Source: Bacteroidales bacterium
GTDB lineage: Bacteria > Bacteroidota > Bacteroidia > Bacteroidales > UBA7960
Direction: 5' to 3'
Length of the DNA stretch: 52,298 nucleotides
Assembly: GCA_003552075.1 (NCBI GenBank)
Contig: PUOJ01000050.1
Span: forward strand, 1-52,298
Shown here: positions 32,400 through 48,161 of the stretch, piece by piece
Layout: each line of letters opens with the position of its first letter
How positions within the stretch are numbered: position 1 is the first letter of the stretch
The notes under the pieces: model-generated
What the model saw: only the letters and a program-made list of their open reading frames with translations
Told to the model about the DNA's origin: nothing
Databases searched by the model: none
Translations under genes and position numbers: made by a program

Positions 32400-33668
32400 T
32401 TACTTTCTGGACACCTCAAAAAAGTCGCCAATGGCGAAAGTAACCGTTCTGCCGTCAGACTTGGTTTCGCCATCTACCACAACGGGTTGGCCCAGGAGGT
32501 TGTTGATGCTGCCGAACCCACGGCGGGCATACCGGCCCAGCAGAGATGCGTCTGTATGCAACAGCTCTTCCGCCTGGTCAATGGGCAGCCCTGTTCGTTC
32601 TGTAAGCTCGTTCCGGGCTAGCTGGGCCAGTGTAAGGTCTTGCCTGTCGGCCGTTCGGGGATCGTCAGCATGCTCTGCGAATAAGTCTGCGCGGTCGCGG
32701 TAAGCAAGCCAGTAATATTCCTGTCGTTTGCGGAGAGGTTCCTGTGGTCTTTGTGTTGCGCCAACGGGAGTCTGTGGCATCACACGATGCATCTGCGATG
32801 CCAGGAGTGGTCTTAGCGCGGGGGTTTCGTAGCCAGGGTCTGCATAAGCTGCAGGCACACCAGGGTCCGCTGACTGGCGGTCAACTTGCAGGGAGGTCAG
32901 CCGGCTTGATGTGGTAGCAAGGTGGATGCCCGGCCGGGAGCTGGCAGGCAGCTGATTTGGAGGAATGGGGGTCATCGCCCGGGCTGACCTCTGCAGCAGA
33001 CCGGGAGCTTCCGCAACGGCCTCCGTCAGCTCCCGGTCGATGCCAGCAGGGGTGTCTTGTGTAAACTCCGGCGTCGTGTGGTCAGGCATGAAGTGCCACA
33101 TGATCACCGCCATCAGCACGGCAGCCGCAGCAGCTGCTGCCGTGTGGCTGTAACGACGCACAAAAGCTCCGATGGGATGTCGCTTCAGAGCTTGCTTTCC
33201 GGGGCACGTCGCTGCCGGTTCGGGGCGCAGACGGGCTGCACGCAACAATTCAAGGTCCTTTTGATACGCCGGGTTGGCTGACAAAAAGGCACGGGCCGCC
33301 TCTTCCTGTTCCTTGTCCAGGTCTCCTTCAGTGAAAGCAATAAGCACCGTGTCCACGCGTGCGGGCCGCACGCGAAGAACACCCTGGTCGTCAGGGGCAA
33401 AAAGATCCTCCGAAAGGATGGCCACTTCCGTCTCCGCATGTGCAGGTCCATGGGCAGCCGCCCAAAGGTCCTTTTTCAGGCTGTCCTTTCCGGGAAACTC
33501 AACCTGGTCCGCACCCTCCAGGCCCACCATCTCAAAGGCCTCAAACTCTGCCCGCAGGTCAGGATGGCTTTCAAGGAACACCAAAAGCTCTCGCCTGCCT
33601 TCGTCTGAAAGCCTGCCCTCAAAATGGTCGAGGAAATAGAGCGGATAGTTTTCCCGGTTGATCTTCAT
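32400..33668 (-). CDS. Anti-sigma-factor-like membrane protein encoded with an ECF sigma factor
   Basis: Cytoplasmic acidic N-term with repeated LxxFLExxPDLxxE / RAFLSANPAYQKDLELL segments, single Ala-rich TM (TAAAAAAAVLMAVIMWHF); adjacent to sigma factor. Confidence 0.7.
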   Translation of the reverse strand: MKINRENYPLYFLDHFEGRLSDEGRRELLVFLESHPDLRAEFEAFEMVGLEGADQVEFPGKDSLKKDLWAAAHGPAHAETEVAILSEDLFAPDDQGVLRVRPARVDTVLIAFTEGDLDKEQEEAARAFLSANPAYQKDLELLRAARLRPEPAATCPGKQALKRHPIGAFVRRYSHTAAAAAAAVLMAVIMWHFMPDHTTPEFTQDTPAGIDRELTEAVAEAPGLLQRSARAMTPIPPNQLPASSRPGIHLATTSSRLTSLQVDRQSADPGVPAAYADPGYETPALRPLLASQMHRVMPQTPVGATQRPQEPLRKRQEYYWLAYRDRADLFAEHADDPRTADRQDLTLAQLARNELTERTGLPIDQAEELLHTDASLLGRYARRGFGSINNLLGQPVVVDGETKSDGRTVTFAIGDFFEVSRK

Positions 33669-33761
33669 TGTCTCTTTGATGGTTTCAGGCCGAAAGCCAG
33701 GCTTCATGTGCATGGTGCATCCATTTGCCAAGATGCCGGGGCCGGGGGCCTTGATTGATTG

Positions 33762-34247
33762 TCATATGACCACGTCCATGCTTCCAATGTACTTTTTTAA
33801 AAACAGGCGCGCCCGGTAAATGTACACCTTTACCTGCGACTCGCTCAGGCCAGTAATTTGACCGATCTCGTGGTAGGAATACCCTTCATAATCGCGCAAC
33901 ATGATCACTGCACGTTGATCGGAAGGCAGGCGCGAAAGCCCTTCTTCCAGTATTTCCCCAAGCCCGGAGTATTCCTGCTGGTATCCTTCTGTCTGCATAG
34001 GAACTTCATCGCACAGGTCTTCCTTTTTTCCCTTTCTCAGGCTGTCGATCATCGCGTGATAGGCCGTGCTGAACAGGTAAGCGCGGGCTTTATCCACATG
34101 GACTTCACGATGGCGAAGCCAGAGCCTTTCAAAGCTGTCCTGCACCACATCCTGTGCCCGGGCATCGTCGCGCAGGTTTTTCAGGATAAAGCGATACACG
34201 CCATCCGCATAGCGGTCTACACACTGATTGTATTCGGCCGTTGTCAT
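33762..34247 (-). CDS. RNA polymerase ECF-type sigma-70 family sigma factor
   Basis: DVVQDSFERLWLRH, YHEIGQITGLSESQVKVYIYRARLFLKKYI. Confidence 0.93.
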   Translation of the reverse strand: MTTAEYNQCVDRYADGVYRFILKNLRDDARAQDVVQDSFERLWLRHREVHVDKARAYLFSTAYHAMIDSLRKGKKEDLCDEVPMQTEGYQQEYSGLGEILEEGLSRLPSDQRAVIMLRDYEGYSYHEIGQITGLSESQVKVYIYRARLFLKKYIGSMDVVI

Positions 34248-34815: not shown

Positions 34816-36123
34816 TTATTTTTTTACCCAAGGCTTGCTTATGGAGGAATTGCCGCTTGTCAGGCGCACGACATATGCACCTGCGGGCAGGTTGGAGATG
34901 TCTATGGCCATTGTCTTTCCAGGAATGTAGCTGCGCTTTTCACTTATCACCAGGTGGCCGGCGGCAGAAAGCAGGTCGACATGCACGTGCTTTCCCGTCT
35001 CATCCGGACTGATCTCTTTTATCCTTACGTGCAGCATCTTATCGGCAGGGTTGGGGTAGAGCTTTAGTTTGGCCGGCTGCTTTTCAGGAAGCAGGACACC
35101 GGTCTCATCGTCCACTTCAGCAACCAGCAGCTCGCCATCGACCACGTACCAGTAATGCCATTCTCCGCCTTCGCCTTCATCCCAGTTGTCGATATCAAAC
35201 CACCCGCTGCCCTCAAAGTCTCCTTTCACTTGGTATACCAGGATGGCTTCCCCGCCCTGCTCCCAGTGGAGAGGCTCTCCTGGCACGCAAGTTTCGGGGG
35301 GTCCCCCATGTTTTTGAAGGAAGTAGGCATAGTCATCATAGGATGGATGTCCGAACACCCGGGCCTGCCCGGCTTGATCAACCGCAATGGCGGTATATTC
35401 ATTGGCGGCGATCCCACGGGCATCCATTTGCCAGTCGGCGATCATCCTGGCCATGAAGCCCACATGCCGCCCATGGCGATCCATTCCGTCATCATGGATG
35501 CGGTTGTAGTGGCTGTCGGTTACCGTTTGCTCCATGAAGGGCACCTGCAGGAAGTCCTTTTCCAGCTTCACCCGCCAGTGGTAGGGATCCGAGAGTGCTT
35601 CCGAAGACCATACCGTGCCGTTTTCTGCGCCGAAAACCACCTCTCCGAGTACCGCCATCCCGGCGCTGGTGCCGCCAATGGTGATTTTTTTGTTGGTGAT
35701 CAGCTCGTTAAGCATGTCCAGCATCTCGCTGTCGCGCCATTCGTCCACATAGTGCCACTGGTTGCCACCGGCAATGAATACCACCTCCGCTTCCGCGAGA
35801 ATGTCGAGCACCTCCGGGCTTTCGGTGTCTTCCGGACCGGTGATCACGATAGACGTTACCGAGTTGACCTCCACGCCCAATCCGCTGTAGAAGTAGTTGT
35901 TGTATCCGTCCGAGCCGGAGGCCCGTAATACCACCACGTCGCCTCCATCTGCGCGCTGCAGCATCCAGGCCATGGCATCGTCGTTGTCGGTCTCACCGCC
36001 AGCCAGCACAAGCCCTGGCAGATGATCTGTGTCCACGGACTCCTCATTGCCCGTGTGATAGATCTCCTGTGTCCATCCGAAGAGCACTGTCAAAACCAAT
36101 AAAATCGTCAATAAAATTTTCAT
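34816..36123 (-). CDS. Secreted cyanophycinase-like S51 peptidase with T9SS C-terminal sorting domain
   Basis: Signal peptide MKILLTILLVLTVLFGWTQ; VFIAGGNQWHY, IGGTSAGMAVLGE nucleophile elbow, TDSHYNRIH...DRHGRHVGFMARM; C-term LKLYPNPADKMLHVRI...LPAGAYVVRLTSG..ISKPWVKK. Confidence 0.88.
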   Translation of the reverse strand: MKILLTILLVLTVLFGWTQEIYHTGNEESVDTDHLPGLVLAGGETDNDDAMAWMLQRADGGDVVVLRASGSDGYNNYFYSGLGVEVNSVTSIVITGPEDTESPEVLDILAEAEVVFIAGGNQWHYVDEWRDSEMLDMLNELITNKKITIGGTSAGMAVLGEVVFGAENGTVWSSEALSDPYHWRVKLEKDFLQVPFMEQTVTDSHYNRIHDDGMDRHGRHVGFMARMIADWQMDARGIAANEYTAIAVDQAGQARVFGHPSYDDYAYFLQKHGGPPETCVPGEPLHWEQGGEAILVYQVKGDFEGSGWFDIDNWDEGEGGEWHYWYVVDGELLVAEVDDETGVLLPEKQPAKLKLYPNPADKMLHVRIKEISPDETGKHVHVDLLSAAGHLVISEKRSYIPGKTMAIDISNLPAGAYVVRLTSGNSSISKPWVKK

Positions 36124-36345
36124 ACGTCTCGTTTTTGTCAAAAACAGGGGGGCGTAATGCCTTAAAGCCTCATATCCAGGTGGCTTGGTAACACTCCGCC
36201 CCGACACGAACTTTCCAAAACACCTTCTTAGGGGTCAAAGCGCGAGCCTTTGCTAATCGTGCCGCCCCTCAATCTTCCAGGGCGGTCAGCACCTTCATCG
36301 CGTCCCGGGCCCTGGCTGAAGGCTAGCCTGTGTCATTCATGCAAC

Positions 36346-37959
36346 CTAAAACCCCGAAAGGTCCATTGTCACCGTCGGGATGAGCAGCAGGAAGCCCAGC
36401 AGGATCAGGATGGCGATGAGTGGGGTGACCCATTTGACCCATTTATGGTATGGGATGCGTGCAACGCCGAGCACGGCGATCAGCACGCCGGAGGTGGGGG
36501 TGATCATGTTGGTGAAGCCATCGCCAAACTGGAAGGCCATCACGGTGGCCTGCCGGGAGATGTCGATGAGGTCACTGAAGGGCGCCATGATGGGCATGGT
36601 GATGGCCGCTTTGGCTGAGCCGCTTGGGATTACTATGTTGACAATGGTCTGGATCACGTACATCACCCCGACGGAGGCCACGCTGCCAAACTGGCCGAGC
36701 GAACGACTCAGTCCGTAGAGGATGCTGTCGATGATGCCACCATCTTCGAGCACCACGATGATGCCCCCTGCGAGTCCGACGATGATGGCTGCCGACATGA
36801 TGTCCTTCACCCCGTCGAGGAAGGAGGTGGCGATGTCGTTGGCATCCTTTTGTACGGCAAGTCCTGCAGCGATCCCCATCCCCAGGAAGAGGGTGGCGAT
36901 CTCCATCACGTACCACTGGTATCCCATCACGCCCACGATAAGGAAAAGGATGGTGTAGGCCAGCAGGAGGAGGATAAAGAAGTGCACTGACTTGCGGAGG
37001 GTCCATATCCCGGCCAGGGCAAAGATCACGGTGGCCACGGGGATCACGGTGATGGTAGCCGATGAGGCGCCCACGGTCAGCGTGGACAGCGGGTACATCA
37101 CAGAAAAAATGGCGAGTACCAGCAAGACCGCCGCATATACGTACCAGGCCATCCTGGGCGTATAATAGGTGATGTTGTTCACGTCGCTGGCCTCTCGTTT
37201 TCGCCAGTAGCTGTCTTCTTCATACATGGTGGATCGCGTGGGGTCTTTTCGTATTCTGGACACATAGCGCAGCACAAAGGCAATGCCCACGATGTTGATC
37301 ACCACCCATGCAAAGAGGCGGTATTCGAGGCCTGAAAACAGGGGCAGGTCGGCCAGGCCCTGGGCGATTCCGATGGTGAAGGGGTTCAGGATGGCTCCGG
37401 CAAAGCCAAGATGGGCGCCGATGTATACCATGCAGACTCCCGTAATGCTGTCGTAGCCCATGGAGATCGCCAGCGGGATCAGGATGATCACGAAGGCGAT
37501 CGTCTCCTCGCTCATCCCGAAAATGGCACCAAAGGCACTGAAGAGCAGCATCACCATCACAATGATGATGTTGTCCACACCCAGCCGGCGCATGGTGGCA
37601 TTGCTTTCGAGTTTGCGTGCATAGCGCAGGAAGGACATGATTCCCACATCGATGGCCTTGGTCTGGTTCATGATCCAGAAGGCGCCGCCGATCATCAGGA
37701 TGAACACGATGATGTTGGACTGTCGTACAAAACCGTTGAAGAGCGCCGACAGCACCTGCCAGGTCTGCGGCTGGCTGTCGAGTGTGTGCCCCTCCGGAAG
37801 TTGGTCCTCGTAATAAAAGACCATGGTGCTTTGTTCTCTGCCGTCGATGACCACCGTCTCCTCAATGTATTTTCCCGGTGGGATGAACCAGGTGAGGACG
37901 GCTGCCAGGATGATGATGAAAAATACGATGACGTAGGTGTGGGGTATCTTCTTCAGCAT
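36346..37959 (-). CDS. YfcC family transporter (C4-dicarboxylate / arginine-ornithine-antiporter-like superfamily)
   Basis: MLKKIPHTYVIVFFIIILAAVLTWFIPPGKY; GMSEETIAFVIILIPLAISMGYDSITG; NIVIPSGSAKAAITMPIMAPFSDLI. Confidence 0.87.
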   Translation of the reverse strand: MLKKIPHTYVIVFFIIILAAVLTWFIPPGKYIEETVVIDGREQSTMVFYYEDQLPEGHTLDSQPQTWQVLSALFNGFVRQSNIIVFILMIGGAFWIMNQTKAIDVGIMSFLRYARKLESNATMRRLGVDNIIIVMVMLLFSAFGAIFGMSEETIAFVIILIPLAISMGYDSITGVCMVYIGAHLGFAGAILNPFTIGIAQGLADLPLFSGLEYRLFAWVVINIVGIAFVLRYVSRIRKDPTRSTMYEEDSYWRKREASDVNNITYYTPRMAWYVYAAVLLVLAIFSVMYPLSTLTVGASSATITVIPVATVIFALAGIWTLRKSVHFFILLLLAYTILFLIVGVMGYQWYVMEIATLFLGMGIAAGLAVQKDANDIATSFLDGVKDIMSAAIIVGLAGGIIVVLEDGGIIDSILYGLSRSLGQFGSVASVGVMYVIQTIVNIVIPSGSAKAAITMPIMAPFSDLIDISRQATVMAFQFGDGFTNMITPTSGVLIAVLGVARIPYHKWVKWVTPLIAILILLGFLLLIPTVTMDLSGF

Positions 37960-38009
37960 GGGTCAACGATTTAAGACTTGCTTGTACACGGGTTAAACGG
38001 GGTTGCAGT

Positions 38010-38078
38010 GTTGCTGTTGGCCATTGGCTGTTGGCTATTCGCTGTTAGCGATCGGTTATCGGCTGTTGGCTGATGGCA
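38010..38078 (-). repeat. Family C word repeat overlapping the 3' end of the cyanophycinase lipoprotein gene
   Basis: ttgctgttggccattggctgttggctattcgctgttagcgatcggttatcggctgttggctgatggc. Confidence 0.75.
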
Positions 38079-38923
38079 AAGCGTTCGCCGGGCAGGAATA
38101 TGTCGAGCTGCAGGTTTCGGCCGCCCAGTTTGTGTTCGTATTGGGTTTTGGAGGCGTCGGGGTTTCTGTACACCAGCACCTGGGCTATTCCTATCACTTC
38201 TGCCTCATTTCCGTTGACCAGGATGGCGGTGGATTCGTCGATGCCGATTCCGGGCAGCTCCGGGTGTTCCAGCACGGAGGTGATCAGGCGGTTGTGGCGG
38301 CTTCTCCACACGAAGTGCTGGTCGATCACGGCGGTGGTCAGCAGGCCGAGTCCTTCGGCCAGTTCAAGGTTTTCTGATTCGATCACCGGGAAGGTGGGCC
38401 GGTATTCGGGGTAGCGCAGTTCATCGCCGGTGATCATCTTTTCGCTCATCACGGCGGCGCCGGCACTGGTCCCGGCGATCACGGCGCCACCGGCGTAGGC
38501 TTCGTGGATCGCCTCCATCACCGGACCGTCGTACACGATGTCCATGAAGCGGTTCTGGTCGCCGCCACTGATGTAGATCAGCGGGGCTTGTCTGAGGGAG
38601 TCGACCCATTCCTGGCGTGGTTCCTCGTCCGGAAGAAAGTTAAAACCGGCTATGCGGCTGATTCCTTGTTCCAGGAACTGTTCGCTGGCCCATATGATGG
38701 CCGAGTCGGGCTCGGAGCTGGACATCGGCAGGATGGCCACATAGCCCTCATCCCAGATGCCGGCCTCATCAATCATCCGCTCCACCATCTCGGCCGGGCG
38801 GCTGCCGCCACCGATGATGAAAAGCGAGCCTTCCGGATGATGCGCTTCTGTCCGCTCTGCCGCGGGCTGGCAAGCCCACAGGGTGGCCAATACAATGGCT
38901 AATACAAGAATGTGTGTCTTCAT
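38045..38923 (-). CDS. Cyanophycinase-like lipoprotein (peptidase S51)
   Basis: Lipobox ATLWAC; SLFIIGGG, IYISGGDQNRF, IAGTSAGAAVMSE, VIDQHFVWRSRHNRL, GIGIDESTAI. Confidence 0.92.
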   Translation of the reverse strand: MKTHILVLAIVLATLWACQPAAERTEAHHPEGSLFIIGGGSRPAEMVERMIDEAGIWDEGYVAILPMSSSEPDSAIIWASEQFLEQGISRIAGFNFLPDEEPRQEWVDSLRQAPLIYISGGDQNRFMDIVYDGPVMEAIHEAYAGGAVIAGTSAGAAVMSEKMITGDELRYPEYRPTFPVIESENLELAEGLGLLTTAVIDQHFVWRSRHNRLITSVLEHPELPGIGIDESTAILVNGNEAEVIGIAQVLVYRNPDASKTQYEHKLGGRNLQLDIFLPGERFAISQQPITDR

Positions 38924-39807
38924 TTGCTCCCGATAAAGAGGTGAATATCTGTCAGTACGATCGAATACAGGTCGGTGGAGTCGTGGTGGCGGAAGGCCAC
39001 GTGGATCTCTTCTCCTGCAAAGTCAGCGAGGTCAATGCTTCGAAGCTGCCACACCCAATTTTCCATTTCGGGGTCCAGCCGTTCGCTATAGATGGTTTCA
39101 AAGTCTTCCACATCGGTCCCGGTGGTTGACACCAGCACGCTGTACTTTTCCGTCCTGAACTCCGGTCCGGAGGCACGCGGGGTCACATAAAACTCAAGCA
39201 TTACCTCTTCCTGTTCGCTTAAGTCGATCTTTGGCGTGACGATCCAGTTGTCGGGCTCCAGTACTTCGCCTGTTGCTGCATCCCAGGAGTCGGACATGAT
39301 GTAATACTCTGTTTCGTCATCGCCCTCGAAGCTGTCCCAGTACCAGTTGCGGCCGTCGCCATTGAGGTCGATCAGCGTCCACCCTTCCGGCGGGAAGTCT
39401 TCCTCCAGTGCCGGGTCATCAAATCGTTCCCGGAAGAGTGTTGACACGAGGCTCAGTCGCTCCGTGGCCTCCAGCTTGTTGTAATGCAGCTCCCTTTCCG
39501 GCTCCACCCTCAGGGTCACTTCATACACGCCATCCTCTTCGTAAATTGCCACGGGGTGTTCCTCGTCAGAGGTGTTTCCATCGCCGAAGTCCCAGTGGTA
39601 GCCCACTGCATTCAGGGATTTGTTTTCAAAGGAGACCTCATAATAGATCTCCCCGGTCTCTGAGTCGGTCAGGACCTCAAACGCATAGTCAAATGCTGCC
39701 TGGGTGCTCGCTGCAGGCACCTCCATCTCATCCTCCGAGCAGGCCTGCAAGGCCACGATGAGTGCCGGAACGAGAAGCAGGCTCATTATTTTCAGCAAGG
39801 TTTTCAT
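38920..39807 (-). CDS. PKD + choice-of-anchor-J (adhesin-like) lipoprotein
   Basis: Lipobox IVALQAC; PKD motif YHWDFGDGNTSDEEHPVAIYEEDGVYEVTL; ERFDDPALEEDFPPEGWTLIDLNGDGRNWYW ... DNWIVTPKIDL; ATGA overlap with the next gene. Confidence 0.87.
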   Translation of the reverse strand: MKTLLKIMSLLLVPALIVALQACSEDEMEVPAASTQAAFDYAFEVLTDSETGEIYYEVSFENKSLNAVGYHWDFGDGNTSDEEHPVAIYEEDGVYEVTLRVEPERELHYNKLEATERLSLVSTLFRERFDDPALEEDFPPEGWTLIDLNGDGRNWYWDSFEGDDETEYYIMSDSWDAATGEVLEPDNWIVTPKIDLSEQEEVMLEFYVTPRASGPEFRTEKYSVLVSTTGTDVEDFETIYSERLDPEMENWVWQLRSIDLADFAGEEIHVAFRHHDSTDLYSIVLTDIHLFIGSK

Positions 39808-39914
39808 ATTGTGGTGTTGTTTTGTGAATATTTTCTAAAGGTGTGCATGTCAAACGGCAAAAGGTCTAAAAGGATGCTTTTGCTGCTGGCTTTTGGCCGT
39901 TTGTTCTTCGTTTT

Positions 39915-41258
39915 TTAGTAACAGTCGTTCTGGTACATCTCATCGTGGAAGTTGGTCAGCAGCTCACCCAGCGGGATGGGGAAGCGCGTATAACACTCCT
40001 CGTCAAGGCCGTCGAGCTCTTCCACTGCCCTGCCACTGCGCACAAGGTCAAACCAGCGGTGCCCTTCGAAGGCAAACTCTTTTTGCCTGGTTTCATGGAT
40101 GATGTCGAGCAGTTGTCCGGGGTCGGTGGTTTCAATGGGGTCCAGCCCGGCTCTTTCAAGCACCATGTTGACGTCGGCGCGTGCCTGGTCGAGTGATTCC
40201 CCGAGCAGGGCATAAGCTTCCGCACGGATGAGGTACATCTCTGCCAGTCGCATGACATAGACGTTGTCGGTTCCTGTTTCGATGTCATTGTATTTGATGG
40301 CATAATGGTTGTCTCCGTCGAGTGCGATGGAGAGGTCCCGGCGCACATCATGTTCAGCATACCTTTCGTAGAGCGTTTCGGTTGGCGAGAACTCCCTTCT
40401 TCCGCTCAGGGATGTCGGGAAGAAATACTCTGCCAGCCTGTTGCGGGCCTGCTCATAGAAGTCCACTTCGAAAATGCTTTCACTGTTGCCTCCATCGGCA
40501 AACAGGGTTTCGAAGGGCACCAGCTCCAGCCCGTAATCTTCGATGACGGCTGTAGCTTCGGCTGCAGCGGTGTTGAGTTGAACATCTTGCCCGGTGATGG
40601 CGTGTTCAAAGAGGCTGACCCTTGCTCTCAGTGCCTGTACGGCAGCCCTGGAGGCCAGGCCCTGTTCCACGCTGGTTCGCAGGTAGGCTTCAGCAAAGTC
40701 GAGGTCGTCGTGCACCTGCAGGTATACCTCGGCATAGGGCCTTCGTGGCACGTTGAGGTCGTCTTCATCTTCCGTGGCGGGCTCTGTGCGGATGGGCACG
40801 GGGCCAAACAAGCGCACCAGGTCGAAATGGGCCAGGGCGCGCAGGAACTTCAGCTCGGCGAGGTAGGCGTTGGCCTCCTCATCGCTTAGCTCATCCACCT
40901 GGGGAATTTTGGCGATGGTATGGTTTGCCCTGTTGATCATCCGATAGATGGCCGACCAGGTTCCTTCCACGATCACATTGTCGGCAAGGATGCTGTTGTT
41001 ATCCATCTGGTTATAGCCTGCCGTGGTCCCTGTCCAGGTCAGGTTGTCGGCCGACAGGTCGCCGGCCACGAGGAAGTTCCGGCCATAGTAGCCGGCTGCC
41101 TGCAGCGCAGAGTAAGTGCCGGTGATGGCACTTTCCACGTCGGCTCTGCTTTCAATGGCATCTTCGCCCGGAATGCTGTGATAGGGCTCCACGTCCAGCA
41201 CGTCGCATGCGGAGAGCACAAAAACCAGCATAATGGGCAGCAAAAATATTTTTTTCAT
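39915..41258 (-). CDS. SusD/RagB family nutrient-binding outer membrane lipoprotein
   Basis: Lipobox FVLSACDVLDVEP; NHTIAKIPQVDELSDEEANAYLAELKFLRALAHFDLVRLFGPVPI; RLAEMYLIRAEAYALLG; EFAFEGHRWFDLVRSGRA. Confidence 0.95.
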   Translation of the reverse strand: MKKIFLLPIMLVFVLSACDVLDVEPYHSIPGEDAIESRADVESAITGTYSALQAAGYYGRNFLVAGDLSADNLTWTGTTAGYNQMDNNSILADNVIVEGTWSAIYRMINRANHTIAKIPQVDELSDEEANAYLAELKFLRALAHFDLVRLFGPVPIRTEPATEDEDDLNVPRRPYAEVYLQVHDDLDFAEAYLRTSVEQGLASRAAVQALRARVSLFEHAITGQDVQLNTAAAEATAVIEDYGLELVPFETLFADGGNSESIFEVDFYEQARNRLAEYFFPTSLSGRREFSPTETLYERYAEHDVRRDLSIALDGDNHYAIKYNDIETGTDNVYVMRLAEMYLIRAEAYALLGESLDQARADVNMVLERAGLDPIETTDPGQLLDIIHETRQKEFAFEGHRWFDLVRSGRAVEELDGLDEECYTRFPIPLGELLTNFHDEMYQNDCY

Positions 41259-41374
41259 GATATGTCTTTGATTTACTTGTTTTTACAATGCGTCGGGTGC
41301 CTGTGCTTCCGGTTCATTGCCTTTGCTTTGTCGTTCAGGCAAAGGGCCCGGAGGCACCGCTTTTTCCTTTGGCT

Positions 41375-44314
41375 TTATATGTCGAGGCTGAGCCCGAGTG
41401 AAATGGTACGTACCTGCGGGTGGGTAAAGAAGTCGGTGCCCCTTCTGAGGTCATCGGCACCGGCATAGTTCACTTCCGGATCCATGCCGCTGTAGTTGGT
41501 AAAGGTGAGCAGGTTTTCGCCTGACACGAAGACCCGTGCACTCCTCATCCCCATCCTGGCCACCACGTCCGGGTCGAACCGGTAGGACAGCCGCAAGTTT
41601 TTCACCCGGAGGTAGGAGCCATCTTCAATGAAACGGCTGGATATCCTGTTGTTATTGTTCGGATCCAGCTCCGAAGCCCTGGGGACGTCGGTTTCGTCGC
41701 CAGGCTGCTGCCAGCGGTCAAGTACCGCAGTGGTCTGGTTGTCGCTGCCCTTCATGGACTCGATATAGATGCGGGTGCCATTGAAAATGTCGTTGCCATA
41801 AGAGAACTGCAGGAAGACACTCAGCTCGAAGTTCTGATACCTGAACCGGTTGGTAAGGCCTCCGGTGAAGTCTGGGTTAGGATCTCCAATTTTGGTCCGG
41901 TCTTCCGAGGTGACCTGTCCGTCGCCGGTGATGTCGGCAAATACGATGTCGCCGGTCGAGGGGTCCACGCCCAGGCTCTTGTATCCATAGAAGATCCCGA
42001 TGGGCTCTCCTTCTCGCACGCTGTTGCTTCCCCTGCCGAGGTTATCCAGGGGCTGGCCCTGGTACAGCTCGAGCACCTTGTTGCGGTTTCTGCTGATATT
42101 GAAGTCGGTAGACCAGGAGAACACCGTGTTGTCGATGTTGACGGTGCTCAGGGTGAGTTCGATGCCCCGGTTTTCCAGTTCGCCGATGTTGGAGGTGATG
42201 CTGCCATATCCTGTGGTATAGGATATGGGGCGGCTAAAGAGCAGGTCCTTGGTGTGGTTGTAGTAGTAGTCGACGCTCATTTCGATGCGGTCGTCATACA
42301 GGCCCACATCCACGCCTGCGTTGTACTGGTAGGTTGTTTCCCATTTGAGGTCTGGGTTGGCGATGCCACGTGGGAAGATCCCGGACTGCCCGAGGTAGTT
42401 TGCGCCTCCTCCGTAGAGTGAGAGGTAGGCAAAGTCGGGGATGCCGTCGTTACCGGTGATGCCATACCCGGCACGCCACCGCAGCTCGCTTATGGGGGTT
42501 CCCCAGGCGCGGAAGAAGTCTTCTTCTGACATGCGCCAGGCCACGGATGCGGCAGGGAAGAAGCCGTAACGGTTTTCATCCCAAAAGCGTGAAGAGCCGT
42601 CATAGCGTGCGGTAAAGGAGAGGATGTAGCGGTAGTCATAGTTATAGCGCAGCTGGCCAAAGAAGGAGTTCATCCCGCGGTCTGTAGCATTGGCGGAGGC
42701 TTCTGATATGGTGCCTGCCTCTGCCACATACTGAAAGTAGGCGTTGGGAAAGTCTACACCGCGGATGAAGGAGTTGCGGCGCTCAAACCGTTCAAACGAG
42801 TAGCCGCCAAGCACTTCCATGTTGTGCACTTCGTCGAAGGTGTTAAGGTAGCGCAGGGTATTGTTCGACACGATGTTGAGCACGTTGCTCAGACCTTCCA
42901 GGCCGATGCCGTTGGAGCGTGCGCCCTGGCGCGTGATGGCCGGGTCATAGCTGTGTTCGCGCAGGCTCAGGTAGTCAAAGCCCCAGGTGGTATTGAAGGT
43001 GAGGTTGTCGAGAATGCGGTAGTCGGCGAAGATGTTACCAATGGTCCTATAGTTATGTGCTTCATTGATGGCTTCCTTGCCGATGGCTACCGGGTTGGCG
43101 AAGGGGGCATCTTCGTTATACGTGCCATCTTCATTGTATACCGGATAGATGGAAGGGTTGGCGATGGCGTTGGCCAGCGGCGCATTTAGCGACTGGTCGC
43201 CTTCCACCCGGTTGTTCAGGGCATAGGACACCCCCACGTTCATCCCGATGTCGAGGCGTTCATTGACCGTGTGGTCAAGATTGAGCCGGCCGCTAAGCCG
43301 CTCGTATGAAGTGCCGATCAGCACCCCTTCCTGGTTCAGGTAGCTGCCCGACACATAAAACTGGGTTTGCTCCTCCCCGCCCCTGGCGGAGAGCTCGTAG
43401 TTCATCGTTGGGGCAGTCGACAGGACCTCGCTGAGCCAATCGGTGTCCACCATGGCTGCTGGATCACCGGGCTGTGTCCCTTTCAGTTCGTGCCATTGCT
43501 GCGCGTTGAGCATGTCCAGGCGATTTTCTATGTCTTGCATGCCGGTGGTGGCATTGAAGCTGATTTGCGTCTCTGCCTGGTCTCCTCGTTTGGTGGTGAT
43601 CAGGATAACGCCATTGGTGGCCCTTGCCCCGTATATGGCTGCCGCCGAGGCGTCTTTCAGGACGGTGACGGACTCGATGTCGTTGGGGTTGATGTCTGAC
43701 AGGGCGTCGATGCCTTGTCCGGAAAATCCAACCTGTCCGAAGTCACCGGTGGTCACCGGGATGCCGTCTACCACCACCAGCGGTTGGTTGCCGGCCGAGA
43801 TGGAGCTGCTTCCCCTGATCCGGATGGCGTTGGCGGCACCAGGGGTGCCGGAGCTCTGGGTGATCTGTAAGCCCGCCGAGCGCCCTTGCAGCACACCGTC
43901 GATGGTACGCATGTTTGACTCTTCCAGGTCTTCGGAGCTCACTACGCCGACAGATCCGGATATCAGGCGCCGGGACTCTGTGCCGTAGCCGGTGACGATC
44001 ACTTCGCCCAGCTCAGCCACATCGAGCTCCATCCCGACGTTAATCACGCTGCGGCCTTCGACCGGGATGGTTTCTGGACGCATGCCCACGAAGGTGAAGC
44101 GCAGGGTGTCTTCTGGCGAAACGGCGATCTCATAGCGTCCGTCGCCATCGGTGATGGTGCCACGGGTGGTTCCCTGCACCGTCACGGTAACCCCGGGAAG
44201 GGTAATATCGCCTTCGTCGACCGAGGTCACCACGCCGCTCACCGTCATGCGGTCGGCTTTCACCACAAGGGTGGCCATCAATAAGATGAGCATGGAAAGA
44301 AAGATGTTCTTCAT
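41375..44314 (-). CDS. SusC/RagA family TonB-linked outer membrane protein
   Basis: Carboxypeptidase-regulatory-like N-domain VSGVVTSVDEGDITLPGVTVTVQGTTRGTITDGDGRYEI; plug VLKDASAAAIYGARATNGVILITTKRG. Confidence 0.96.
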   Translation of the reverse strand: MKNIFLSMLILLMATLVVKADRMTVSGVVTSVDEGDITLPGVTVTVQGTTRGTITDGDGRYEIAVSPEDTLRFTFVGMRPETIPVEGRSVINVGMELDVAELGEVIVTGYGTESRRLISGSVGVVSSEDLEESNMRTIDGVLQGRSAGLQITQSSGTPGAANAIRIRGSSSISAGNQPLVVVDGIPVTTGDFGQVGFSGQGIDALSDINPNDIESVTVLKDASAAAIYGARATNGVILITTKRGDQAETQISFNATTGMQDIENRLDMLNAQQWHELKGTQPGDPAAMVDTDWLSEVLSTAPTMNYELSARGGEEQTQFYVSGSYLNQEGVLIGTSYERLSGRLNLDHTVNERLDIGMNVGVSYALNNRVEGDQSLNAPLANAIANPSIYPVYNEDGTYNEDAPFANPVAIGKEAINEAHNYRTIGNIFADYRILDNLTFNTTWGFDYLSLREHSYDPAITRQGARSNGIGLEGLSNVLNIVSNNTLRYLNTFDEVHNMEVLGGYSFERFERRNSFIRGVDFPNAYFQYVAEAGTISEASANATDRGMNSFFGQLRYNYDYRYILSFTARYDGSSRFWDENRYGFFPAASVAWRMSEEDFFRAWGTPISELRWRAGYGITGNDGIPDFAYLSLYGGGANYLGQSGIFPRGIANPDLKWETTYQYNAGVDVGLYDDRIEMSVDYYYNHTKDLLFSRPISYTTGYGSITSNIGELENRGIELTLSTVNIDNTVFSWSTDFNISRNRNKVLELYQGQPLDNLGRGSNSVREGEPIGIFYGYKSLGVDPSTGDIVFADITGDGQVTSEDRTKIGDPNPDFTGGLTNRFRYQNFELSVFLQFSYGNDIFNGTRIYIESMKGSDNQTTAVLDRWQQPGDETDVPRASELDPNNNNRISSRFIEDGSYLRVKNLRLSYRFDPDVVARMGMRSARVFVSGENLLTFTNYSGMDPEVNYAGADDLRRGTDFFTHPQVRTISLGLSLDI

Positions 44315-44398
44315 AGTGATTGCGTATTTGGTTTATTGATTATGATGTGATGTACACGGGTTAAAGGGCTACTGAGGGGTGCGGTTTGGTGTGTCTGG

Positions 44399-45556
44399 TT
44401 ATTCATACGTGCCTTTCCGCAACATTTTTCCGTCCTTCACCATCATCTTGCCCCTGGCACAGAGGTGAACGATGCGAAAGTCCTTGTCCACCAACAGGAG
44501 GTCGGCATCTTTTCCCGGGGCGACACGGCCTTTGCCTTGCAGCTTGAGGATGTCAGCCACGTTGGAGGTGACGGGCTGCAGTGCTTTTTCCAGGGGCAGG
44601 TCTTCTTCCAGGACACAATCCCGCAGCTCATCCATCATCGATTTCAGTCCGCCGGATTCCAGCCTCACCAGCTCTCCCTTTTCGTTGAACTGTGGCAGGG
44701 AGCCTGCGCCGTCGCTGCTCATCGTGACATGTGCCAGGGGCACGCCGGCTTTTAATAGTGCCACAATGCCTTTAGACGGTTTAATTTCCTCGTCAGGAAA
44801 GATGGGATATGCACTTGTGGTGAAGTCCACGTAGCCGTGTTTGCCGTATTCTTTGGCGTCTTCAAAAATATATTCATTGCGGTTACAGTGCGTTGGCAGA
44901 AACTGTGTCAGCTTGAGTTCACTGAAGTTGACGGCATCATAGAGCGGCTGAAATGGGTTTTCCGCATCGCCCATATGGATGTTTACGATGCCCGACTTGC
45001 CGCCCAGCATTGCGCCTACGCGCGAATGTGCGGCCAGCCGGATAAGCTCCGACACCGTGGGCGTCGAAGACCGGTGGTCCGACAAGGCGATCTCCCCGGT
45101 ACCGATCACCTCTTCGATCATGCTGATGTCTTTGCCGACATCTCCCAGGATGGTGGGAGTTGGCACCTGGTAGGCCCCAGTATACATATACGCACTGACG
45201 CCTTCTGCGCGCAGGCCTTTGGCTTTCATGAGCACGGAGCGCAGGTCGCGGGTGAGGCCGTCGGTGCCGAGGCAGCCCACAACGGTAGTCACGCCGGCTT
45301 CTAGCATCCTGCTTAAGGGCATCTCTGGCGTCCGGCTGGCCGGGCCACCCTCTCCGCCCGCGCCGGCGATGTGCACGTGTGAGTCGATGAGTCCGGGAAA
45401 CAGGCGGAGCCCCGTCCCGTCAATGACGTCCACATCCAGGTTTTCAGGTGGTGTAATCTTTTTGCCGACGGCCACGACCTGGGTGGCAGCCACCAGGACA
45501 TCCATTGGCCCGAGGTGATCCGGTGCATACACCTCGCAGTTGGTGAACAGTATCAT
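44399..45556 (-). CDS. iadA: Isoaspartyl dipeptidase (beta-aspartyl-peptidase)
   Basis: FPGLIDSHVHIAGAGGEGGPASRTPE, GVTTVVGCLGTDGLTRDLRSVLMKAKGLRAEG, HMGDAENPFQPLYDAV, THCNRNEYIFEDAKEYGKHGYVDFTTS, MSSDGAGSLPQFNEKG; start at MILFTNC. Confidence 0.93.
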   Translation of the reverse strand: MILFTNCEVYAPDHLGPMDVLVAATQVVAVGKKITPPENLDVDVIDGTGLRLFPGLIDSHVHIAGAGGEGGPASRTPEMPLSRMLEAGVTTVVGCLGTDGLTRDLRSVLMKAKGLRAEGVSAYMYTGAYQVPTPTILGDVGKDISMIEEVIGTGEIALSDHRSSTPTVSELIRLAAHSRVGAMLGGKSGIVNIHMGDAENPFQPLYDAVNFSELKLTQFLPTHCNRNEYIFEDAKEYGKHGYVDFTTSAYPIFPDEEIKPSKGIVALLKAGVPLAHVTMSSDGAGSLPQFNEKGELVRLESGGLKSMMDELRDCVLEEDLPLEKALQPVTSNVADILKLQGKGRVAPGKDADLLLVDKDFRIVHLCARGKMMVKDGKMLRKGTYE

Positions 45557-45820
45557 TATGTGTGTATTTAAGGTCAGCACTAATAAAGTCGAAAAGCACT
45601 GGCTTGCCAGGCATGATGGGTTTTGGCAACCCCATGACAGTTATTGGCCTTCAGGCTCCTCATTGCAACAAAGACAAATTTAGTAAGTTTTTTAAAATAT
45701 TTATTAATTCGGCTCTTATTTCTTTCGCGGTCATCAAATACACCTTTGCTGTATCCATTTTAAAAATATATTACCTTTACAGGTCGAAAATTGTGGCACA
45801 CAAATTAAAAATCGTGACCT

Positions 45821-46681
45821 ATGACGGATTTTACCAACACACCTGAGATTGCTGATGAGGACATCCGGCAACGTACGGAAACAATATTGCAGGATGCGCG
45901 TGAAACTTCCGATATGGGAAAGGTTTATCGTGAATTGCTTGGGGTGATCGACCTGACCACCCTGGAGGGCACCGACACGAAGAGGCGGGTGGAAGAGCTT
46001 TGCAACCAGGCGGTGTCATTTTCGGCTTTGCCTGATGGGTTGCCTGATGTGGCGGCGGTTTGTGTCTATCCGCCTTTTGTGGCGCAGGCCCGCAAGTTGT
46101 TGGAAAACACAGGCATCAGTGTGGCGTCCGTAGCCGGTGCCTTCCCTTCCGGTCAGTCGCCGCTTTTTGTAAAGATGGCGGAGGTACGGTATGCTGTGGA
46201 CGAGGGTGCACAGGAGATCGACATGGTCATCTCACGCGGGAAGTTCCTGGAGGGCGAATACAGTGAGGTTTTTGATGAGATCGCCGCCATCAGGGAAGCC
46301 TGTAAGGATGCGCACCTGAAGGTTATTTTGGAGACTGGGGAGTTGAAGACGGCCACCAACATTCGTCGTGCCAGCGAGATCGCCTTGGAGGCAGGGTGTC
46401 ATTTCCTCAAGACTTCCACGGGGAAGGTCAAGCCGGCGGCCACGCCGGAGGCCATGCTGGTGATGCTGGAGGCGATCCGCGACCACCACAAAAAAACCGG
46501 CCTGATGACCGGTATCAAGCCTGCCGGGGGCATTTCTGACCCCGAGACGGCCCTTGCTTATTATCGTCTCACCCGCGAGGTGCTTGGCTCCAAGCGGCTG
46601 AGCAAAAAGTGGTTCCGCATAGGAGCCAGCCGCCTGGCCGGCTCCCTGGTGGAGGCTATCCGCAATGCAAAAAACGCCTGA
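45821..46681 (+). CDS. deoC: Deoxyribose-phosphate aldolase
   Basis: IDLTTLEGTDTKRRVEELC, EIDMVISRGKFLEGEY, KVILETGELKT, FLKTSTGK, GIKPAGGIS. Confidence 0.94.
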   Translation: MTDFTNTPEIADEDIRQRTETILQDARETSDMGKVYRELLGVIDLTTLEGTDTKRRVEELCNQAVSFSALPDGLPDVAAVCVYPPFVAQARKLLENTGISVASVAGAFPSGQSPLFVKMAEVRYAVDEGAQEIDMVISRGKFLEGEYSEVFDEIAAIREACKDAHLKVILETGELKTATNIRRASEIALEAGCHFLKTSTGKVKPAATPEAMLVMLEAIRDHHKKTGLMTGIKPAGGISDPETALAYYRLTREVLGSKRLSKKWFRIGASRLAGSLVEAIRNAKNA

Positions 46682-48161
46682 CCAGCTTCATGGTCTCTTC
46701 GGTGTTTCCGCTTAGCTTTTCCCTCAAGTTCTCGTCATCGTAAGCTTCCAGCGTGTTGATCACGCCATCCAGCAAGGTGTCGGGGAACACGTCATACTTT
46801 TTGTACACCTCGGCCTGTTCCCTAAGGTAGGATGCGGCCTTCCTGCAGGAATAGGGCAGCTGGGCCAACTGTTGCTGGCGTTCCTTGTGTTTTTCATCAA
46901 AGATGTTGACATCCACATAGGTCTTTTCGGCCAGCTCGAGGGCGTTGGGCATCTCCAGTCCGTGGCGTGCGCCCACGCAGAGGCCTGCGATCAGCAGGTA
47001 GATGTCTGCGGAGCCATCAGGGCAACGGAACTCAAAGGTCTGCTTGTCTCGCAGGTCTTTATCCTGTGGACATTCATTCGGGTTTTCCCTGGCGACCATG
47101 TCGCCCGATCCGACCCAGCCGAGGGGTACGCGCACGAGGGTGGAACGGTTACGTTCACCCCAACATACGTTGGTAGGCGCTTCCTGGTGGGGTACCAGGC
47201 GAAAATAGCTGGTAGGAATGGTGTTGCCAAAGGCAGAGAGCGAAGGTGCGAGGTCGAGGATCCCGGCGATGACCTTGCGTGCGGGGTCGCTGATGCGGTC
47301 ATTCTCAAGGGTCACATTCTCCCCGTCTTTCATGATGCGCATGTGGATGTGCATGCCGCTTCCGGCCTTGCCTGCCGTGATCTTGGGTGCGAGACTCATG
47401 GTCACGCCGTACTGGTAAGCCACCTGGCGCAGGATCCACTTGGCAATGATCAGTTGGTCGGCAGCAGACTCCACGTCTGTAGGCAGAAATTCGATCTCGT
47501 TTTGCTCATAATCAAATTCATCATCAGAAAAATTGCCCACCTCCGAATGGGAATATTTGATCTGCGCCCCGGTTTGTGCCATGGCCATCATCGCATCCAT
47601 CCGAAGCTGCTCCCACTTCACGAAAGGCACCGACTCGTGGTAGGCACGCTGGTCAGTCGCCCGGTACAGCGGGTCTTTCTCACTGATCACATAGTATTCG
47701 ATCTCTCCCATCACCTCCATTCCATAACCGGTCTGTTCCAGGAGCTCCTGGTGTGCCTTGCGCATGATGTTCTCCGGTGCACTCGCCAGGGGCTTGCCAT
47801 CCTTGTCGTAATAGGAACAGAGGATGTCCAGCGTCGGGATCTCCGTGAACGGGTTCATGAAGGCCGTGCGAAAGCGGGGGACGACATACAGGTCGGAAGA
47901 CCCGGCCTCCAGAAAGGAGAACAAGCTGCTGCCATCTACGCGCTCTCCCGTCGACAGGATGGTGTCCAGGTGTTCCCTGCTCTGGATCACAAAGTTCAGG
48001 GCCTTGAGGCGGCCATCGCCGCCCACATAACGAAAGTTTACTACCTCGATTTCGTTTTCCTGCACAAAGCGGATGATGTCCTCCTTGGTAAAATCAGCAG
48101 GGGATTTGTGCAAATAACGAACCAGTGGGTTGGGGTTTAACAGATATTGATTTTCTTCCAT
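46656..48161 (-). CDS. Glutamine synthetase (GSI-like)
   Basis: VDGSSLFSFLEAGSSDLYVVP, GEIEYYVI, GSGMHIHMRI, NRSTLVRVPLGW, FEFRCPDGSADIYLLIAGL. Confidence 0.9.
   Translation of the reverse strand: MEENQYLLNPNPLVRYLHKSPADFTKEDIIRFVQENEIEVVNFRYVGGDGRLKALNFVIQSREHLDTILSTGERVDGSSLFSFLEAGSSDLYVVPRFRTAFMNPFTEIPTLDILCSYYDKDGKPLASAPENIMRKAHQELLEQTGYGMEVMGEIEYYVISEKDPLYRATDQRAYHESVPFVKWEQLRMDAMMAMAQTGAQIKYSHSEVGNFSDDEFDYEQNEIEFLPTDVESAADQLIIAKWILRQVAYQYGVTMSLAPKITAGKAGSGMHIHMRIMKDGENVTLENDRISDPARKVIAGILDLAPSLSAFGNTIPTSYFRLVPHQEAPTNVCWGERNRSTLVRVPLGWVGSGDMVARENPNECPQDKDLRDKQTFEFRCPDGSADIYLLIAGLCVGARHGLEMPNALELAEKTYVDVNIFDEKHKERQQQLAQLPYSCRKAASYLREQAEVYKKYDVFPDTLLDGVINTLEAYDDENLREKLSGNTEETMKLVRRFLHCG

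Follow-up and report, generated by a model that had tools for sequence, protein, structure and literature searches.

Bacteroidetes strain L21-Spi-D4 carries what has been called a "cyanophycin utilization locus", which, as described by Ben Hania et al. (2017, doi 10.1111/1462-2920.13639) in the form cited by Sharon and Schmeing (2023, PMC10206079), consists of cyanophycinases, iadA and a transporter. Salinivirga encodes two S51 proteins, one of them plain and the other Por-tailed (PMC6243061). The intracellular degradation of cyanophycin, in which CphB or CphI acts together with IaaA or IadA and the genes lie beside cphA1, comprises the same two enzymatic steps as the locus that we describe here. 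The abstract of the 2017 study reportedly also mentions a transport complex homologous to those of polysaccharide utilization loci. By description, our locus can further be likened to the extracellular cyanophycinase CphE of Pseudomonas (PMC10206079) and to RagAB and Bt2261-64, which are SusCD complexes that bind peptides and not glycans (PMC7782687). Its overall plan is that of a polysaccharide utilization locus, with SusC, SusD, a surface lipoprotein and outer and periplasmic enzymes in a single operon, but the carbohydrate-active enzyme is absent and the predicted substrate is a polypeptide. To our knowledge, no SusCD operon has been associated with Pseudomonas CphE, and we know of no coupling of RagAB or Bt2261-64 to a cyanophycinase or an isoaspartyl dipeptidase.

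The window, that is, the whole stretch of 52,298 nucleotides that was analysed, comprises positions 1 to 52,298 of contig PUOJ01000050.1 from a Bacteroidales bacterium (GCA_003552075.1; 198 contigs that total 2.39 Mb, with a completeness of 86.5%). Its minus strand carries, at 34816-45556, seven adjacent open genes that were assigned to families with curated Pfam and NCBIfam models and that read, 5' to 3', iadA-susC-susD-PKD/choice-of-anchor-J lipoprotein-S51a-yfcC-S51b, in agreement with the order and families proposed by the initial annotation. Very probably, these seven genes form an operon by which a soda-lake type bacterium scavenges cyanophycin, or a close isoaspartyl polymer, from other cells. 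This type of locus is already known, since one of the same kind was published in 2017 for Salinivirga cyanobacteriivorans, to the extent of the description cited above. By the descriptions above, the S. cyanobacteriivorans L21-Spi-D4 locus is also from the Bacteroidetes and also pairs a plain S51 with a Por-tailed S51, and the features reported for it recur here as a clustered cyanophycinase, iadA and transporters (SusC, SusD and YfcC/DcuC), in a genome with no synthetase over the cut-off. The present locus departs from the Salinivirga locus in the short form of S51b (436 residues) and in the location of yfcC inside the operon. It departs from the intracellular pathway in having no synthetase, in the predicted export of both S51a and S51b, in the addition of SusCD and YfcC, and in the placement of S51a in a separate clade.

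The first gene, iadA (44399..45556, with its start at 45556; minus strand, as for all seven genes), encodes an isoaspartyl (beta-aspartyl) dipeptidase that scores 476.8 bits against TIGR01975 (cut-off 331) and, lacking a signal peptide, is predicted to be cytoplasmic. Its best solved relative is E. coli IadA (1ONW, 362 bits), with which its metal ligands and substrate residues align, except that the bridging K162 is replaced by E, as in the solved isoaspartyl dipeptidase 7cf6; the roles of these residues are those given in the E. coli IadA literature. Downstream of iadA are genes for a SusC/RagA-type TonB-dependent outer-membrane transporter (41375..44314; TIGR04056, 874.5 bits, cut-off 368), a SusD-family surface lipoprotein, or lid (39915..41258; PF07980 and PF14322, with a lipobox and then C-DVLD), and a PKD and choice-of-anchor-J lipoprotein (38920..39807; PF18911, PF07675 (Cleaved_Adhesin) and NF038128 (choice_anch_J), with C-SEDE at the N-terminus). 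The last three genes encode the cyanophycinase-family lipoprotein S51a (38045..38923), a YfcC/DcuC-family inner-membrane transporter (36346..37959; PF03606, 347 bits) and S51b (34816..36123), a divergent S51 peptidase with a T9SS type A sorting domain (PF03575 (Peptidase_S51), PF18962 (Por_Secre_tail) and TIGR04183). The initial annotation gave intergenic gaps of -4 to 138 bp. The 4-bp overlap of the S51a gene with the preceding PKD-lipoprotein gene stands, but the most likely start of S51b, judged from its signal peptide (MKILLTILL), is the ATG at 36123 and not the GTG at 36207, which puts about 222 bp, and not 138, between it and yfcC. As had also been noted from the outset, none of the ten proteins tested (the seven locus genes and three neighbours) proved to be a glycoside hydrolase or a polysaccharide lyase, and a canonical polysaccharide utilization locus was rejected because SusC and SusD are present with no carbohydrate-active enzyme in that set.

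The leader or intergenic region at 45557..45820 (minus strand) likely holds the operon promoter, as suggested, weakly, by a TANNTTTG-like -7 element, TAAATTTG, about 120 bp upstream of iadA; a strict pattern search found no full -33/-7 Bacteroidetes promoter upstream of iadA and one chance-level match elsewhere. Next to iadA, beyond this region, lie deoC (45821-46681) and a glutamine synthetase family gene (46656-48161), a neighbourhood that is also seen beside iadA in the relatives L006 (553-3073) and L010 (1011-3462) and that has a possible link to nitrogen assimilation. About 570 bp downstream of S51b and on the same strand, the stretch at 32400-34247 encodes an ECF sigma factor followed by an unannotated protein, possibly an anti-sigma factor. 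We have considered this sigma factor as a candidate, if unproven, member of the locus; in the flavobacterial loci L017-L023 an ECF sigma/FecR pair lies upstream of susC.

S51a scores 151.2 bits against the cyanophycinase model TIGR02069, over the curated cut-off of 126.6, and 35 bits against PepE. In Synechocystis CphB, Gln101, Ser132, Asp172, Gln173, His174, Arg178, Arg180, Arg183 and Glu201 are reported to be the catalytic and substrate residues (Law et al. 2009). All nine (the Ser-His-Glu triad and the substrate residues Q, D, Q, R, R and R) align in S51a and are invariant in 14 homologues. An AF2 model of S51a (pLDDT 82) returned solved cyanophycinases as its first nine Foldseek matches (top E 3.6e-22), and it matches CphB structures that include the cyanophycin-bound 7uqw. 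Where the initial annotation had spoken of two cyanophycinase-like proteins, the description fits S51a, while S51b, at 45.1 bits against the same model and cut-off, is a distant and divergent homologue in which the triad appears to be kept: alignment shows GTSAG, the D-S/T-H motif and the acidic E/D, with Ser/Thr where CphB has Gln173. A profile-profile comparison matched S51b to S51a with a probability of 98.4%, and a low-confidence AF2 model of S51b (pLDDT 63, built from 7 sequences) had a cyanophycinase as its top Foldseek match (E 6.2e-10). Among the rows of the S51 tree, SusCD-linked proteins mostly have D-Q-H at this motif (41/51), as does cyanobacterial CphB, and D-T-H predominates (12/16) in the synthetase-linked S51 proteins of Bacteroidota. 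A longer second S51, of about 670-700 residues, occurs in loci of other families (L039, L042, L043, L045, L046 and L112), and the L043 copy is T9SS-tailed.

The probable locations of these proteins were read from their export signals. In Bacteroidota, an acidic signal at +2 to +6 after the lipoprotein cysteine tends to mark surface lipoproteins (PMC5080379). The residues that follow the cysteine are acidic, and fit this signal, in SusD (C-DVLD) and in the PKD lipoprotein (C-SEDE), and the latter is likely a surface binding protein. S51a (C-QPAAE) does not fit, in most of its relatives 0-2 residues of the same stretch are acidic, and among flavobacterial S51a proteins several carry a Sec signal but neither a lipobox nor a T9SS tail; for want of the acidic surface-export signal, S51a is probably periplasmic and not extracellular. 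S51b is probably extracellular, as its type A tail would be recognized by a T9SS for which the source genome has SprA (2617 bits) and 37 matches to the CTD, or T9SS tail. The probable placement of S51a refines the initial annotation.

Computation gave the families of the genes, the residues that are conserved, the co-conservation of the locus and the failure to detect a synthetase. We infer the compartments from sequence signals, and the substrate, every transport step and the activity of S51b are proposed as follows. T9SS-secreted S51b would attack the polymer outside the cell, SusD and the PKD/choice-of-anchor-J lipoprotein would bind it at the surface, and the resulting oligomers would be imported by SusC with TonB. 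In the periplasm, S51a would trim the oligomers to beta-Asp-Arg (or Lys) dipeptides, which YfcC would move across the inner membrane and cytoplasmic IadA would split into Asp and Arg.

The arrangement of these genes recurs well beyond the source genome. A scan for relatives of S51a gave 23 loci, nearly all of them with adjoining SusC and SusD and most of them with the PKD protein where the contig was long enough; the closest are from Bacteroidales MAGs, mostly of sediment samples labelled CSSed. When the order and phylum were surveyed, blind to context, for matches to the cyanophycinase family, 98 loci were read, of which 23 had an adjacent SusCD pair, 16 of these 23 also having IadA or IaaA, so that the expectation that the association would be conserved elsewhere is borne out across the Bacteroidota. 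The operon is kept within the genus and occurs in permuted forms in many genera of the phylum, a recurrence that argues against a chance arrangement. In some relatives, however, YfcC or the dipeptidase is not linked, and at the threshold applied no S51 was matched in G633, a genome of the same genus. In the tree, S51a falls in a supported clade (SH-aLRT 99) that stands apart from the clades with synthetase-linked S51 proteins; of the 42 rows in the S51a clade, 31 are linked to SusCD within the stretch read. S51b falls in another clade, in which 13 of 14 rows are SusCD-linked. Order-wide, a cyanophycinase homologue was found in 35/37 IadA-bearing genomes as compared to 62/295 genomes overall. 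The single 4,812,386 bp contig of G606, from the same order, has at L043 an S51a-SusC-SusD-PKD series, an opposite-strand IadA and a T9SS-tailed S51, and fits the published description of Salinivirga.

Cyanophycin synthetase (TIGR02068) had no match over the cut-off in the source genome (86.5% complete), and the storage of cyanophycin by the source organism was rejected on this ground. The synthetase was detected in 1/23 SusCD-linked genomes versus 29/57 others (Fisher p 7e-5); the 22 of 23 SusCD-linked genomes that have no synthetase thus look like scavengers. The score and residues of S51a, the conservation of the locus and the absence of the synthetase together support the earlier proposal of a polypeptide analogue of a polysaccharide utilization locus, built on SusCD architecture for the uptake of cyanophycin. 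Polypeptide SusCD loci for this cyanobacterial nitrogen store would then be widespread in the Bacteroidota, usually in non-producers, a distribution that would be consistent with trophic links being common between cyanobacteria and this phylum. Our search of the literature found no description of the phylum-wide split from producers, of dipeptidase swaps within SusCD loci, or of the relation of YfcC to compartment that is taken up below.

Other explanations can account for parts of this evidence. The material taken up could differ from canonical cyanophycin, being a related isoaspartyl polymer or some mixture (variant cyanophycin, for example, or cyanophycin that contains lysine), as might be suggested by the divergence of S51b and by S51a itself, which is somewhat closer to the Pseudobacteroides pseudo-CphB 7uqv (94.9 bits), an enzyme for which our literature search found no paper, than to Synechocystis CphB 3en0 (81.0 bits). 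We consider this unlikely, though it is the most serious of the alternatives, as S51a keeps all of the CphB substrate residues and the polymer of this type that is common in cyanobacteria is canonical cyanophycin. It is a good deal less probable that the locus is a general scavenger of the isoaspartyl or aspartyl peptides that damaged protein yields, with a PepE-like S51 and IadA acting on oligopeptides that SusCD imports in the manner of RagAB. The PepE family is homologous, SusCD-type peptide importers exist (PMC7782687) and the IadA enzymes of cyanophycin clusters are promiscuous (PMC10206079), but S51a favours the cyanophycinase model over PepE by 151 bits to 35 and retains the polymer-binding residues, the operon has two S51 paralogues but lacks a general protease, and IadA and cyanophycinase co-occur strongly in the order.

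That a SusCD system for glycans or peptides merely happens to adjoin unrelated cyanophycinase and iadA genes is scarcely credible, even though Bacteroidota genomes often hold many SusCD pairs and 6/23 of the SusCD-linked surveyed loci are without a linked dipeptidase and YfcC. Such a chance neighbourhood is contradicted by the recurrence of the association, with rearranged order, in many genera, by the ties of both S51 clades to SusCD, and by the short gaps and the one 4-bp overlap.

The reading of the locus as a scavenger of cyanophycin or a close isoaspartyl polymer also gains from variation in its dipeptidase. The slot is filled by interchangeable DIPEPTIDASES. Bacteroidales have IadA there, and Christiangramia is among those that have an Asparaginase_2 of the IaaA type; in Psychroserpens, Aequorivita and their relatives the slot holds an M20 enzyme that bears a signal peptide. 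The swapping of unrelated beta-aspartyl dipeptidases (IadA and IaaA) in one slot supports a beta-aspartyl dipeptide as the intermediate. The M20 genomes also carry unlinked Asparaginase_2 genes, so the M20 enzyme may have other dipeptidases beside it, and the idea that it is the sole one was not supported. Whole-genome searches found a DcuC/YfcC gene in 16/17 genomes where the dipeptidase is cytoplasmic (and linked, except in five) versus 0/10 where it is exported (p 1.3e-6, a value that overstates the evidence because the genomes are related in groups and are a non-random sample), and the contrast holds within the Flavobacteriaceae as well. This tracking of the dipeptidase compartment points to YfcC as the dipeptide importer; its distant solved relatives are the AbgT transporters of aminobenzoyl-glutamate, a dipeptide-like substrate. 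We tentatively suggest, as a possibility about which we remain somewhat doubtful, that SusCD cyanophycin loci follow two wiring plans, one in which YfcC imports whole dipeptides that cytoplasmic IadA or IaaA cuts, and another in which an exported IaaA or M20 enzyme cuts them in the periplasm and YfcC is dispensed with. We know of no transporter to which the role of beta-aspartyl dipeptide permease has been assigned, and YfcC would be the first. If the two plans are real, the M20 enzyme with a signal peptide may be a new isoaspartyl dipeptidase; for many Bacteroidota, the enzyme with this activity is listed as undiscovered (PMC10206079). The compartment pattern yields a testable prediction for the transporter YfcC and names M20 candidates.

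Several minor observations concern individual S51 genes. The S51a gene of L014 (9974-10849) and the S51b gene of L026 (12214-13427) are each split into two open frames, which could reflect a pseudogene or a sequencing error. A third S51 protein in the source genome (G000:C187:14711-15154, L003) scores 33 bits against cyanophycinase and may be a PepE-type dipeptidase. An S51a that is 100% identical to the one described here is present on a 4.8 kb contig (L004, PWGU01000081.1) in the MAG of an archaeon, Halorubrum, into which this contig, almost certainly of Bacteroidota origin, has been misbinned.
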